Shown here piece by piece: positions 2,953 through 52,215 of a stretch of 64,000 bases of DNA. Each line of letters starts with the position of its first letter. Within the stretch, counting starts at the first letter, position 1. The DNA comes from Bergeyella cardium. GTDB lineage: Bacteria > Bacteroidota > Bacteroidia > Flavobacteriales > Weeksellaceae. The stretch lies in assembly GCF_003614945.1 (NCBI RefSeq), contig NZ_QYCZ01000001.1, positions 142,001-206,000 on the forward strand, given 5' to 3'. A model generated the notes under the pieces. The model saw nothing but the letters and a program-made list of their open reading frames with translations. It was not told the DNA's origin and did no database searches. The translations under genes and the position numbers were made by a program.

Positions 2953-3105
2953 TCTTATTTCGTACAGATGAAAATATAATTTCATACTGATAAAAAAGAA
3001 ATTTTGTAGTGATGAAAATATAATTTCGTAGTGATGAAAAAAAATTATGACAGCACGAAATAGAGATTTCATACAGATGAAAATAGGAATTATCACGCGT
3101 GAAAG
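2953..3105. repeat. Degenerate 22-bp tandem array, about seven units
   Basis: Units start at 2953, 2975, 2997, 3019, 3041, 3063 and 3084; all are 22 bp except the 21-bp sixth unit. The consensus is close to ATTTCGTAnnGATGAAAA. The best unit contains TTTCATACAGATGAAA (3067-3082), a dyad with TTTCAT/ATGAAA arms. Twenty-two bp is about two helical turns, so the dyads would face the same side of the DNA. The array ends ~80 bp before the stress-protein ATG. A protein-binding array is inference. Confidence 0.65.
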
Positions 3106-25509: not shown

Positions 25510-25655
25510 TCCACCCCCACCCACTGGCGTGGGGAGCACTTAGCTAATAGCGTGGCAGGTGATTATTCACAAACTAATCACGCACTGCCCATCGCCTACT
25601 GCCTGAAGCGTATAGCGCGAAGCTAGTTGCTATTTGCCACTCGCCAGAAGTCAAT
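25510..25655. repeat. Composite palindromic repeat and heptamer repeat after bshC
   Basis: Left arm CCCACTGGCGTGGGGAGCAC with TTA (25520-25542), then CACAAACTAATC (shared with two other copies), AAGCGTATAGCGCGAAGC (compare 48211) and CTAGTTGCTATTTGCCACTC. The end of bshC reaches into its edge. Confidence 0.6.
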
Positions 25656-29398: not shown

Positions 29399-29406
29399 TA
29401 TATTTG
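29399..29406 (+). promoter_or_regulatory. -7 box (TATATTTG) of feoAB
   Basis: TATATTTG ends 45 bp before the feoA ATG. It shows that the TTG at 29404 belongs to the promoter and is not a start codon. Confidence 0.6.
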
Positions 29407-29451
29407 CAGTTCATTAAATCATCAGTTTTGGAAAAGAATACAGACACTAAA

Positions 29452-29682
29452 ATGAGCACATTTCCCCTTAACCAAGACGGTATTATCACTGGGTATGATA
29501 ATGACTCCCTGCAAATGCCCTCAAAAATTATAGAAATGGGGCTCTTGCCCAATACCGCATTTCGGATTCTCTATCAGGCACCTTTTGGCGGACCGCTGTA
29601 TATAGAGTTTGGGCAGGAAAAGAGCCGAATCGCTCTTAGAAAAACCGAAGCCGAGTTCATCATCGTTCAAGAAAAACGATAA
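29452..29682 (+). CDS. feoA: Ferrous iron transport accessory protein FeoA
   Basis: A 76-residue SH3-like FeoA-domain protein (IIEMGLLPNTAFRILYQAPF, then GGPLYIEFGQEKSRIALRKTEA). It is a cytosolic partner of the FeoB iron channel. The ATG at 29452 is chosen because a longer frame would start inside the -7 box. feoB starts 31 bp downstream in the same transcript. Confidence 0.92.
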   Translation: MSTFPLNQDGIITGYDNDSLQMPSKIIEMGLLPNTAFRILYQAPFGGPLYIEFGQEKSRIALRKTEAEFIIVQEKR

Positions 29683-29712: not shown

Positions 29713-31707
29713 ATGCAACCAAATACCACCTCAAATACCAAAAAATTTCTCCTCGTAGGTAATCCAAATGTGGGTAAATCTACCCTCTTTAATGCCCTCT
29801 GCAACCGAAAACAAAAAACAGGGAACTATGCGGGGGTTACCGTATCCAGCCTTACGGGGGACTATATTTATAAGGGAGAGAAAGTCATCATTACAGATCT
29901 CCCAGGTTCGTACAGTGTCTATCCGACTTCTAAAGATGAAGCGGTTTTTAGCGAGAAGCTCCTCTCTTCCCAAAACGAATACAATGGCGTTATCTACCTC
30001 CTCGAAGCACTCAGCATCAAGCGAGGTTTGCTCCTCTTTCGCCAGATTCAGGACTTGGGCATTCCCCTTATCCTCGTCATTAACCAAATAGACCAAGCGA
30101 AAAAACGAGGTATAGACATAAATATCGATATGCTGGAGCAAAAGCTCGGTGTAAAGGTCATTACCACCAATGCCAAAGATAATATCGGAGTAGATGAGCT
30201 CAGAGAATCCCTCTTCAATGCAGAATATACATCTGCCGATGCTCCATCTTTCCACATTCCTTTGGAGCAAAAGAGATTTATCTCAGAATCTGTATTAGAC
30301 ACTTCGAATGAATACCGTGCGTGGGTAGATTATGCCTCCTCGCTATCAAAAGATAAGGGTGTTAATATCAAAAGGCTTCAGGTACAGGAGACCGTAAGGC
30401 GCTATCAGAATATAGATGAAATCCTCACGGGGATAATCACCAAAAAAGCTGGCTTTAAGGAGCTCCTCACCGAGAAGCTCGACAAAGTTCTCGTGCATAA
30501 GTTCTGGGGTTATATCATCTTTACTATGCTCCTTTTGCCCATCTTTCAGCTGGTATTTACAATTGCTCAATATCCTATGGAATGGATTGAAGATGGCTTT
30601 GGAGCTATACAGGAGCTTACAGAAAGTCTCCTCCCCGAAGGTCCTATCAATAGCCTTATCACCAGCGGCATCATACCAGGTATAGGTGCTATTGTGGTCT
30701 TTGCACCCCAGATTTTCATCCTCCTTTATCTCCTCTATGTGCTCGAAGATTCGGGCTATATGGCAAGGGTTGTCTTCTTGATGGATAGACTCCTCCGTCC
30801 CTTTGGGCTCAATGGCAAGAGTATTGTGCCCCTTGTCTCTGGAACTGCCTGTGCCGTGCCTGCGATTATGGCAGCAAGGAATATCGAGAATGTAAAAGAA
30901 AGGCTCATCACGATTTTAGTAACGCCTTTTATGGCGTGCTCTGCTCGTCTCCCGATTTATAGCATCATCATCAGCCTTATTATCCCAGATGAAAGTTTTC
31001 TCGGTATTAGTTACAAGGCATTAATGCTCCTGCTGATGTATTTCCTTGGGTTTGCAATGGCGCTCATCTCTGCATTCGTGCTAAAGAAAGTCATTAAGCC
31101 TAACCAACCCTCTTTCCTCGTGATGGATTTGCCAACCTATAAAATGCCCCTCTGGTGGGAGGATTTAAAGCTCACACTGAGCAAAGTCTGGGCATTTATC
31201 ACTGGGGCGGGTAAGGTTATCTTCACCGTAAGCGTTATCCTATGGGTGCTGAGCTATTTCGGGGAGAGTAAAAACCAAGATGAATGGGTCGCTACCGATG
31301 TAGAACTTAAAGACTCTTACCTCTCACAGGTCGGAGCCGTGATACAGCCCGCAATAGAACCTCTCGGCTACGATTGGAAGATGGGTATCGGTATCTTGAC
31401 CAGCTTTGCAGCAAGGGAAACTTTCGTGGCAACGATCTCCACCCTCTACAGCTTAGATGAAGACGCCCCCGAAGGTAAGATTATAGAAAAAATGCAAGCC
31501 GACCTCAAACCCGATGGTACAAAGGTCTTCAGTTTCGCTACAGGGCTCTCCATCCTGATGTTTTATGCCTTTGCAATGCAGTGTATTTCTACCATTGCCA
31601 TCGTCTATAAGGAAACGAAGAGCATAAAGCTCACCCTCCTTCAGCTGGTCGGGATGACGGGGATTGCCTACATCGCCTCTCTCTTCGTCTATCAGATTTT
31701 TAAATAA
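29713..31707 (+). CDS. feoB: Ferrous iron transporter FeoB
   Basis: A 664-residue inner-membrane Fe(II) importer. The N-terminal G domain has VGNPNVGKSTLFN (G1), TDLPGSYS (G3) and LVINQIDQAKK (G4). A GDI-like helical spacer follows, then the membrane part from residue ~255 with two Gate motifs (LPLVSGTACAVPAIMAARNI and AARETFVATISTLY). Complete length for the family. Operon: feoA, feoB, then a small Cys-rich membrane protein 18 bp on. Confidence 0.97.
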   Translation: MQPNTTSNTKKFLLVGNPNVGKSTLFNALCNRKQKTGNYAGVTVSSLTGDYIYKGEKVIITDLPGSYSVYPTSKDEAVFSEKLLSSQNEYNGVIYLLEALSIKRGLLLFRQIQDLGIPLILVINQIDQAKKRGIDINIDMLEQKLGVKVITTNAKDNIGVDELRESLFNAEYTSADAPSFHIPLEQKRFISESVLDTSNEYRAWVDYASSLSKDKGVNIKRLQVQETVRRYQNIDEILTGIITKKAGFKELLTEKLDKVLVHKFWGYIIFTMLLLPIFQLVFTIAQYPMEWIEDGFGAIQELTESLLPEGPINSLITSGIIPGIGAIVVFAPQIFILLYLLYVLEDSGYMARVVFLMDRLLRPFGLNGKSIVPLVSGTACAVPAIMAARNIENVKERLITILVTPFMACSARLPIYSIIISLIIPDESFLGISYKALMLLLMYFLGFAMALISAFVLKKVIKPNQPSFLVMDLPTYKMPLWWEDLKLTLSKVWAFITGAGKVIFTVSVILWVLSYFGESKNQDEWVATDVELKDSYLSQVGAVIQPAIEPLGYDWKMGIGILTSFAARETFVATISTLYSLDEDAPEGKIIEKMQADLKPDGTKVFSFATGLSILMFYAFAMQCISTIAIVYKETKSIKLTLLQLVGMTGIAYIASLFVYQIFK

Positions 31708-31725: not shown

Positions 31726-31866
31726 ATGGAAATTTCATTAGTTTTTCAGTACATATTGCTCGCATTGGTCGTTATTTTCGCGTGCTACTCCATTTACAGG
31801 AAGATTAAAAACACTTTTTCCTCAAAAAATAATAAAGGTTGCGACAAAGGCTGTGGATGCTCATAA
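31726..31866 (+). CDS. FeoB-associated Cys-rich membrane protein
   Basis: A 46-residue protein with one N-terminal membrane helix (residues ~5-24) and a basic stretch, ending in a Cys-rich tail (GCDKGCGCS). This is the pattern of the small FeoB-associated proteins found in Bacteroidota and Firmicutes, which may function like FeoC or hand over iron. It lies 18 bp after feoB. Confidence 0.82.
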   Translation: MEISLVFQYILLALVVIFACYSIYRKIKNTFSSKNNKGCDKGCGCS

Positions 31867-31894: not shown

Positions 31895-32040
31895 CCCTCT
31901 CCCACCCACTGGCGTGGGGCGCACTTAAAAATAATCGCCCCATCCACCCACTGCATAGAGCATACTTAGAAATAATCGCTTGCCACACCGTGGCTAAGTG
32001 CCTGCCACGCTGTAGCTGCCTCACCGGCTACGGTGCGGAG
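31895..32040. repeat. Composite palindromic repeats after the feo operon
   Basis: Arm CCCACTGGCGTGGGGCGCAC with TTA (31905-31927), then AATAATCGCCCC, a partial second arm (CCCACTGCATAGAGCATACT), CTTGCCACACCGTGGCTAAG, CTGCCACGCTGTAGCTGC and CTCACCGGCTACGGTGCGG. At least two elements appear to be nested or joined here. Confidence 0.65.
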
Positions 32041-32473
32041 GAAAATTCGCGTGAATCTTGTCAATATTTTTCTCATTGGAGGAAAATTCGCGTGAATCTT
32101 GTCAATATTTTTCTCATCGGAAGAAAATTCGCGTGAATCTTGTCAATATTTTTCTCATCGGAAGAAAATTCGCGTGAATCTTGTTAATATTTTTCTCATC
32201 GGAAGAAAATTCGCGTGAATCTTGTCAATATTTTTTTCATTGGAGGAAAATTCGCGTGAATCTTGCCAATATTTTTCTCATCGGAAGAAAATTCGCGTGA
32301 ATCTTGTCAATATTTTTTTTATTGAAGGAAAATTCGCGTGAATCTTGTCAATATTTTTTTCATTGAAGGAAAATTCGCGTGAATCTTGTTAATATTTTTC
32401 TCATCGGAAGAAAATTCGCGTGAATCTTGTCAATATTTTTCTCATCGGAGGAAAATTCGCGTGAATCTTGTTA
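32041..32473. repeat. 41-bp tandem repeat array, ten full units plus a partial
   Basis: Units begin at 32041 and every 41 bp to 32451 (eleven starts, last one ~23 bp long). The unit is GAAAATTCGCGTGAATCTTG followed by TCAATATTTTTCTCATCGGA plus one base. Variation is limited to a few positions (T/C, G/A). The unit has stop codons in every phase over three copies, so it is not coding, and it has no spacers, so it is not CRISPR. It contains a small dyad ATTC-GCGT-GAAT. Its function is unknown. Confidence 0.92.
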
Positions 32474-32553: not shown

Positions 32554-32561
32554 TACCTTTG
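32554..32561 (+). promoter_or_regulatory. -7 box (TACCTTTG) of the DUF6261-like gene
   Basis: TACCTTTG, ~80 bp after the 41-bp array and 66 bp before the ATG. Confidence 0.5.
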
Positions 32562-32627: not shown

Positions 32628-33341
32628 ATGAATGACATCAATGACATCAGTTTAGTAAGACTAAACAACGGAGCGCATTTCATGTTTATTAAGAATGTGA
32701 ATGATAGGGTGCAAAGCAATAACACCCTCAAAACAAAATTGGGCGCGCTGGCAACTAACCTGAACGATGCCCTGAACAAAGAAGACGAGGCAATGCTCCT
32801 CTCTCAGAAATCCCTCACTACAGACGATATCGCCGCCGCTGATGAGCTGAGAGATAGCATCTACTCGGGCTATAAAAAAGTGGTGGATGGCTATAGAAAA
32901 CTCCCCGTAGCCTCCATAGAAGTCGCTGCAAAGGAACTGTGGCAGCACATTAAGGACTACTCCATAAACCCTCAAGACCAGTTGGATAAAGAGACAGGAA
33001 TGCTCCTCAACTTTATCGATGATTTGGAGACGAAATACGCCCCGCAAATCACTACCCTCTCGCTTACAGCATTCGTGGCCGAACTGAAAATAGCAAACGA
33101 GAAAGTCCGCAGGCTGACCAGCAAACGAACCGACGAACGCTCAACCCAAGCAGTAGGCGCACTGAAACAAGCCAGAAAAAACTCTGACAACGCCTACCGA
33201 GAACTCGTAAAAATGGTCAATGCCCTTGCCCTGATAGAAGGAATTGCCCCTTACGAGGACTTTATCGACTACCTAAACACCGAGATAGCCCACTTTAAAC
33301 GAGAGGTAATCCCCAGCAAAAAGAAAGACCCAAAACCCTAA
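32628..33341 (+). CDS. DUF6261-like protein of unknown function
   Basis: A 237-residue mostly helical, charged protein with no signal peptide or membrane segment. The start ISLVRLNNGAHFMFIKNV and the helical body (residues ~30-215) look like the DUF6261 family of Bacteroidota, recognised from memory. The C-terminus is Lys-rich (PSKKKDPKP). Monocistronic: its own -7 box and a terminator at 33369. It lies directly downstream of the 41-bp array, which may be its regulatory region or coincidental. Confidence 0.7.
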   Translation: MNDINDISLVRLNNGAHFMFIKNVNDRVQSNNTLKTKLGALATNLNDALNKEDEAMLLSQKSLTTDDIAAADELRDSIYSGYKKVVDGYRKLPVASIEVAAKELWQHIKDYSINPQDQLDKETGMLLNFIDDLETKYAPQITTLSLTAFVAELKIANEKVRRLTSKRTDERSTQAVGALKQARKNSDNAYRELVKMVNALALIEGIAPYEDFIDYLNTEIAHFKREVIPSKKKDPKP

Positions 33342-51330: not shown

Positions 51331-52140
51331 ATGAAAGCAATACACTTTAATGGAGCAGGTGGTGCAGAGGTTATAGCGCTTGTAGAGGTACCTATACCTA
51401 CTCCTCAGCACGATGAGCTCCTTATCAAGGTGCATACGGCGGGGATTAATGGTCCAGATGTAATGCAAAGAAAAGGGCTTTATGCCCCTCCGAAGGGGGT
51501 AACCGAAATCCCAGGGCTTGAGGTTTCGGGTACGGTGGTGCAGTCCGATAGTGCTGGGACTTTTGCTGTAGGGCAGGAGGTTTGCGCCCTTATACAAGGC
51601 GGAGGCTATGCCGAATATGCCGTTGCCAAAGCAGAAAATACGGTTCCCATTCCTACGGGCTTGTCTCTCACGGAAGCTGGAGGTTTCTTAGAAACTTTTA
51701 TGACGGTCTGGGCACACCTCTTTCAATTTGCGGGCTTTACGGAGGGTAAATCTATCCTTATCCACGGGGGTGCATCGGGGATTGGTACTACGGCTACGAT
51801 GCTTGCAAAGGCTTTTGGTGCTAGTCAGATTTTTACTACTGTATCGAATAAAGAAAACCAAATCCGTAGCATTGAATTAGGAGCCGATATAGCCATTAAT
51901 TACCGAGAAGAGGATTTTGTGCAGGTAGTGAAACAGCATACCGAAGGTAGAGGGGTAGATTATGTGCTCGACTTGATAGCGGGGACTTATGTACAGCGAA
52001 ATTATGATGTAGCGGCAATGTACGGAACCATCGTTCAAATAGGCGTGATGCAAGGCAAAGCTCCAGAAGTAGATCTCTTCCCAATGCTCGACAAAGGTGG
52101 GCACTTCGGTAAGTTTGTACTTAATATAAGTGAGCCCTAG
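51331..52140 (+). CDS. NAD(P)H:quinone oxidoreductase (PIG3/QOR type), internally shortened
   Basis: A zinc-independent MDR-family protein. The N-terminal GroES-like part (MKAIHFNGAGGAEVIALVEV, NGPDVMQRKGLY, PGLEVSGTV) and Rossmann domain (ILIHGGASGIGTTATMLAKA) are intact. It is 269 residues long, whereas relatives are ~325. The gap is near the end: VDLFPML is joined to DKGGHFGKFVLNI, so about 55 residues that normally lie between (the return to the catalytic domain) are missing, in frame. Activity is doubtful. Monocistronic. Confidence 0.85.
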   Translation: MKAIHFNGAGGAEVIALVEVPIPTPQHDELLIKVHTAGINGPDVMQRKGLYAPPKGVTEIPGLEVSGTVVQSDSAGTFAVGQEVCALIQGGGYAEYAVAKAENTVPIPTGLSLTEAGGFLETFMTVWAHLFQFAGFTEGKSILIHGGASGIGTTATMLAKAFGASQIFTTVSNKENQIRSIELGADIAINYREEDFVQVVKQHTEGRGVDYVLDLIAGTYVQRNYDVAAMYGTIVQIGVMQGKAPEVDLFPMLDKGGHFGKFVLNISEP

Positions 52141-52215
52141 GTCAAGGAAAATGAACCTTAGGTCAATGAAAATGAATAAGTGCCCCACCGGCTACGGTGT
52201 TGGGTCAAGGAAAAT
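52139..52215. repeat. Three GGTCAAGGAAAATG-type repeats around a palindromic fragment
   Basis: GGTCAAGGAAAATG occurs at ~52140 and ~52202, with GGTCAATGAAAATG between at ~52161. Between the second and third copies lies TAAGTGCCCCACCGGCTACG with GTG after it, a fragment of the dispersed element. Confidence 0.55.

Follow-up and report, generated by a model that had tools for sequence, protein, structure and literature searches.

A 41-bp intergenic tandem array beside the feo genes of Bergeyella cardium is probably a dispersed, species-restricted minisatellite of an approximately 21-bp period class

In the F plasmid, the sopC site is made up of 43-bp repeats, about a dozen in number, while the iterons of plasmids measure about 19-22 bp; each forms a single site recognized by its own protein, whose gene lies nearby. 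Among the Bacteroidota, Porphyromonas gingivalis carries tandem repeats of 41, 23, and 22 nt, and the 41-nt repeats, which lie inside MITE464/PgRS between repetitive flanks, are reported to have no matches outside that species (PMC4596501). REP/BIME sequences are short, GC-rich, extragenic palindromes present in many copies, each with a conserved unpaired foot (PMC3733652). The array that we describe here, in the genome of Bergeyella cardium, resembles sopC and the iterons in its tandem organization and in a period close to two or four turns of the helix, and resembles bacterial VNTRs or minisatellites in its non-coding, spacer-free units with few substitutions. With MITE464/PgRS and BrickBuilt, which are likewise intergenic minisatellites of Bacteroidota, it shares repetitive flanks, dispersed copies, and restriction to one species or its closest kin (PMC4596501). 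We consider it probable that this non-coding array is a minisatellite restricted to the species and embedded in mosaic intergenic repeats, and one member of a class of arrays with periods of about 21 bp.

The window, a stretch of 64,000 nucleotides, holds the array between the feo operon and a DUF6261-like gene, where a preliminary description had placed it and where Pfam matches agree. The features of this interval are as follows.

29404-29682, + strand: feoA (PF04023; Pfam)
29713-31707, + strand: feoB (PF02421, PF07664; Pfam)
31726-31866, + strand: putative small Cys-rich protein associated with FeoB (PF12669; 25.5 bits, slightly below the cut-off of 27)
31905-31918, - strand: palindromic module with stem CCCAC and loop GCCA (family A[GT]T[GC]C-NN-stem5-GCNA-stem5')
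31982-32016, + strand: two degenerate modules like that at 31905-31918, GCCACACCGTGGC and GCCACGCTGTAGC (read from the sequence; this mosaic is repeated elsewhere)
32022-32035, + strand: palindromic module CACCG-GCTA-CGGTG, abutting the first unit of the array
32036-32471, + strand: tandem array of the 41-bp unit CGGARGAAAATTCGCGTGAATCTTGTYAATATTTTTYTCAT, with ten full units and a partial eleventh (TRF and unit dissection)
32554-32561, + strand: TACCTTTG, candidate -7 box (TAnnTTTG), outside the array
32628-33341, + strand: DUF6261 gene (PF19775; E 1.4e-48)

TRF assigned this array a period of 41, 10.6 copies, 93% matches, 0% indels and a score of 746, and the ten steps from one unit to the next each measure exactly 41 bp, with zero spacers. 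Both TRF and dissection thus agree with the preliminary count of ten full units and a partial one at an exact 41-bp period with few variable positions; its account of the array as non-coding and spacer-free also stands, as no reading frame is open across the array and the units are contiguous. Head-to-tail units of roughly 10-100 bp without spacers, by which minisatellites and VNTRs are recognized, are precisely what is found here. A CRISPR was ruled out, as contiguous units leave no unique spacers between repeats. Seven columns vary among the units, every change being a transition, and the core AATTCGCGTGAATCTTG is invariant within the array. Against the minisatellite reading, this invariant core and the restriction of changes to transitions could mean constraint.

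The nearest relatives of FeoB, from Soonwooa, Cruoricaptor and a Flavobacteriaceae MAG, are 61-62% identical to it. Flavobacterial promoters carry the -7 motif TAnnTTTG, of which a single instance occurs near the DUF6261 gene; this candidate box has no TTG 17-23 bp upstream. The 41-bp unit is far from peculiar to this gap. Arrays of it occupy at least four sites in the genome (C1:174041, which is the window array, 384102, 469711, and, on the other strand, 1355326), with about 3 to 10 copies at each, and 25 unit matches were recovered in total, against 0 for a reversed control pattern. The flanking genes, namely feo and DUF6261, DsbD and an exonuclease, DUF4876 and a T9SS-tail protein, and a 2-oxoacid dehydrogenase E2 and an MFS transporter, have no common theme. 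Because the unit recurs beside unrelated genes, we reject locus-specific regulation of feo or DUF6261 as the main reading. The preliminary description would have counted the same array at random loci, with no bound protein or transcript, against its proposals, and the three further chromosomal sites bear this out in part. Beyond B. cardium, no array of the unit was found among 319 other genomes of the family, six of which hold single matches of 24-32 bp that look like chance; the one inspected sits at an apparent gene start. There was no match in 394 other sampled genomes across the phylum, nor in an exact-pattern scan of genome contigs other than those of this genome. Plasmid and phage collections likewise yielded no match, and a plasmid or phage origin was accordingly rejected. 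The array is therefore not specific to the feo/DUF6261 gap, and the repeat is species-specific among the genomes searched.

The low divergence of the units had been taken as a sign of recent expansion, a view which the distribution of unit variants does not sustain. Identical variants occur at distant loci (W.1 = L2.6 and W.2 = L3.1), the window array itself holds one separated pair (W.3 = W.10), and nearby units within it are no more alike than others (Mantel r -0.20, p 0.90). Variants common to distant loci, together with this lack of an adjacency effect, point to copying or exchange between loci, and not to one recent local expansion; a simple model of recent slippage from a single unit fails to account for the pattern. 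Local duplication happens too, given that adjoining units of the sister array L003 are identical (2 = 3 and 4 = 5). As read from the sequence, the sister loci L002 and L004 also carry diverged 41-bp units near their arrays.

The surroundings of the four arrays are built from short palindromic modules, in which A[GT]T[GC]C is followed, after two bases, by a 5-bp stem whose two arms enclose a GCTA-like loop. The stems vary widely yet pair (CCCAC, CACCG, CAGCT, CACCT, GCCAC, CTCGT, GCCGT, CACTG and others), and 48 strict copies occur in 864 kb, where eight other, similarly degenerate flanks gave 0-5. Members of the family were seen at window positions 25533, 31918, 36929, 51029, 52186, and 63153, and also in L031-L060 and L157. 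In three of the four arrays (window, L003, and L004) the first unit is directly preceded by the module CACCG-GCTA-CGGTG, which L002 lacks; three of the four end in a tail related to TAGCTCCAnCCAAG (TAGCTCC-like; CAGCTCC in L004 and TAGTTTC in L003), followed by a CCCAC..GTGGG module, which is missing from the window array. Despite this sharing, the outer ends are not constant among the four loci. Shared modules border three of the four arrays, which suggests that the arrays spread as parts of mosaic intergenic repeats. In being short, GC-rich, extragenic, multicopy palindromes with a conserved unpaired foot, the modules are REP-like; unlike REP, their foot is A[GT]T[GC]C in place of GTAG or CGTC, neither of which was found beside the modules, their stems vary around a GCTA-like loop, and no RAYT accompanies them (PMC3733652). 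The 41-mer itself, unlike REP/BIME, is not strongly palindromic. A search for a RAYT/Y1 transposase (PF01797) gave 0 matches in this genome, the control search being positive in 5 of 14 known genomes, and RAYT-driven REP was rejected as the genome is without RAYT.

Given about four or more dispersed intergenic copies, repetitive flanks and shared flanking modules, these loci might be copies of a non-autonomous transposable element with an internal minisatellite, in the manner of MITE464/PgRS (41-nt) or BrickBuilt (23-nt), and PgRS likewise has 41-nt repeats between repetitive flanks (PMC4596501). Intact copies of PgRS and BrickBuilt, however, carry IS5-like 12-bp terminal inverted repeats (PMC4596501), whereas no inverted repeats of at least 11 bp surround any of the four arrays, and MITE ends of that length were rejected on that basis, though shorter terminal repeats may exist. 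Further, the flanks are a mosaic of short modules and not one element with fixed ends, with the left module missing from L002 and the right one from the window array, so that we regard a transposable element as quite unlikely. The failure to find a transposition mechanism (no Y1/RAYT, and no inverted repeats of at least 11 bp at the arrays) also counts against spread as a mosaic, which we nonetheless favor.

The period of the array gains significance from the remainder of the genome. We surveyed 864 kb of it, comprising the window and L172-L211 (41 stretches), of which three were picked to cover the sister arrays; the latter were counted as one family. TRF detected 46 non-coding arrays, 34 of them with periods of 20-23, 41-44 or 63. 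When arrays scoring at least 80 in TRF were clustered by sequence, 37 arrays fell into 28 unrelated families, and in 23 of the 28 the period lies between 21k-1 and 21k+2 (binomial p about 1e-12, p-values being approximate because gene positions come from simple ORF calling and the score decided the representative periods). The five exceptions include a CRISPR-like array and an apparently coding 18-mer. Repeated non-coding 10-mers, a measure independent of TRF, recur at distances of 21 (13 loci), 42 (18), 63 (6) and 84 (11), over a background between peaks of about 0.5-0.8 loci per distance, with no peak at 31-32 or 52-53. None of 3000 random period sets was as concentrated as that observed, in which no period falls at 29-34 or 50-55. 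The modulus, which was not pre-registered, came to notice in the first 404 kb; the second 400 kb and a related genus (G001) then served as the check. Lacking peaks at three or five turns, the distribution argues for a quantum of about 21 bp, and not for helical phase alone. It is in this concentration of unrelated arrays at multiples of about 21 bp that the locus departs from VNTRs as described in the papers searched. The earlier remark that 41 bp is about four helical turns, which would keep sites in phase, also proved more apt than was foreseeable, since unrelated arrays of this genome share a two- or four-turn period.

Four units of 42/43 bp consist of two similar 21-22-mers (p below 0.01), so that some members of the class may fairly be taken to have re-amplified as dimers. 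Within the 41-mer, half-half similarity is not significant (p 0.22), and a dimer origin would here be argued from the period class alone, the 41-mer itself carrying no such trace. Coding arrays were set aside as a test of a mutational quantum, as most 'coding' cases at 21/42 are non-coding arrays left open, which stay in frame because the period is a multiple of three; true coding arrays are too few, or are two-copy cases. Unrelated intergenic arrays with periods of 21-23, 41-44, 63 or 84 bp include those at window positions 2957-3085 and 52131-52176, L189 13780-14226, L174 18540-18732, and L187 12721-12937. At L186 14269-14422, a 42-bp array has two different palindromes, TCGTCATATGACGA and TCGGCACGCCCCGA, in alternate units and in the same frame, the stem being swapped and the spacer kept. 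L207 17403-18648 holds a CRISPR-like array with the repeat GTTGGAACTGCCCTTATTTTTGGAGGGTAAATACAAC at a spacing of about 67 bp.

A shared period of two or four turns invites the proposal of a phased landing array, iteron- or sopC-like, that would present the same face of the DNA every four turns to an architectural, silencing or partition protein. The invariant core of the window array is compatible with such a role, as are the many intergenic arrays of unrelated sequence with two- or four-turn periods and a modest enrichment of palindromes over shuffles across the period class (Fisher p 1.3e-5). We consider it unlikely, however, because the array sequences are unrelated, 37 arrays making 28 families, and no single sequence-specific protein fits them; moreover, pure phasing would permit periods of 31-32 and 52-53 bp, which are absent. 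Unlike sopC and the iterons, the arrays are several, dispersed beside unrelated genes, with no gene for such a protein next to them. The dyad ATTC-GCGT-GAAT (4-bp arms, loop of 4), previously noted in each unit, occurs at chance level relative to shuffled 41-mers (p 0.79), and its left half is swapped for GAAAC in units of the sister arrays L002 and L004. At chance in the 41-mer and broken in sister arrays, it was rejected as an operator or as a partition/iteron protein-binding site.

The suggestion of an RNA with repeated modules finds partial encouragement in folding, in that the + strand of the window array folds better than shuffles (z -2.98) and eight of nine junction-centred units form a similar hairpin. 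On such a reading, the feo transcript would carry repeated copies of an imperfect hairpin in its 3' region, with an effect on mRNA stability or termination. This appears very unlikely, as the - strand is not significant (z -1.72), Rfam gave no significant match for the array, and 7 of 27 arrays of the period class lie between divergent genes, where no 3' end exists. Covariation or compensatory changes among array units do not exceed those in shuffles, and the RNA module was rejected on this ground.

Taken as a minisatellite within mosaic intergenic repeats, the array would need neither cargo nor a locus-specific job. Pieces of the mosaic would be copied between intergenic sites, copy number would shift by slippage or unequal recombination, and units would be exchanged between loci by recombination. 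Arrays of the class may begin when a segment of about two helical turns is duplicated, and then re-amplify as dimers (41-44), with the quantum perhaps set by something acting on the double helix, be it the duplication machinery or a protein tiling the DNA at two-turn intervals.

The period class is also seen in two related genera. In 400 kb of G001, 10-mers recur at distances of 21 (7 loci), 42 (9), 63 (6) and 84 (5), and a second related genus, G024, has arrays with periods of 21, 44, 44 and 63; other family members and other Bacteroidota, when pooled, show a weak excess at 21-22. E. coli has one locus at 41 and none at 21-23 in 200 kb, a contrast limited by a small sample, with 28 kb of non-coding DNA. 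The array at L219 717-1213 of G001 comprises eleven 44-bp units, CCCTTCAGAAGGGGGTAACGACCATTAAAGAAGGGGTATCCGAC, of the same period class and unrelated sequence, and L269 2630-3820 of G024 holds a probable CRISPR array with the repeat ATTCTAATCGCACCATAAGGAATTGAAAC. The 41-, 23- and 22-nt repeats of P. gingivalis fit the same series of about 21 bp. No account of a two-turn concentration of bacterial array periods was found in the literature searched, which covers a minority of subscription papers.

On its own, the feo-adjacent array is an ordinary dispersed minisatellite; the period which it shares with unrelated arrays is not ordinary. Tentatively, and as a possibility that we hold with less confidence than the reading of the array itself, intergenic arrays in this lineage of at least three related genera may form or survive only at multiples of about 21 bp, whatever their sequence. 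If so, a process on the double helix shapes intergenic DNA in these bacteria, for which the candidates would be a duplication machine, the geometry of a topoisomerase or recombinase, or sequence-blind tiling by a protein every two turns. Were the pattern family-wide, it would offer a handle on how bacterial tandem duplications start, and on a possible limit set to them by helical geometry or a DNA-tiling protein.
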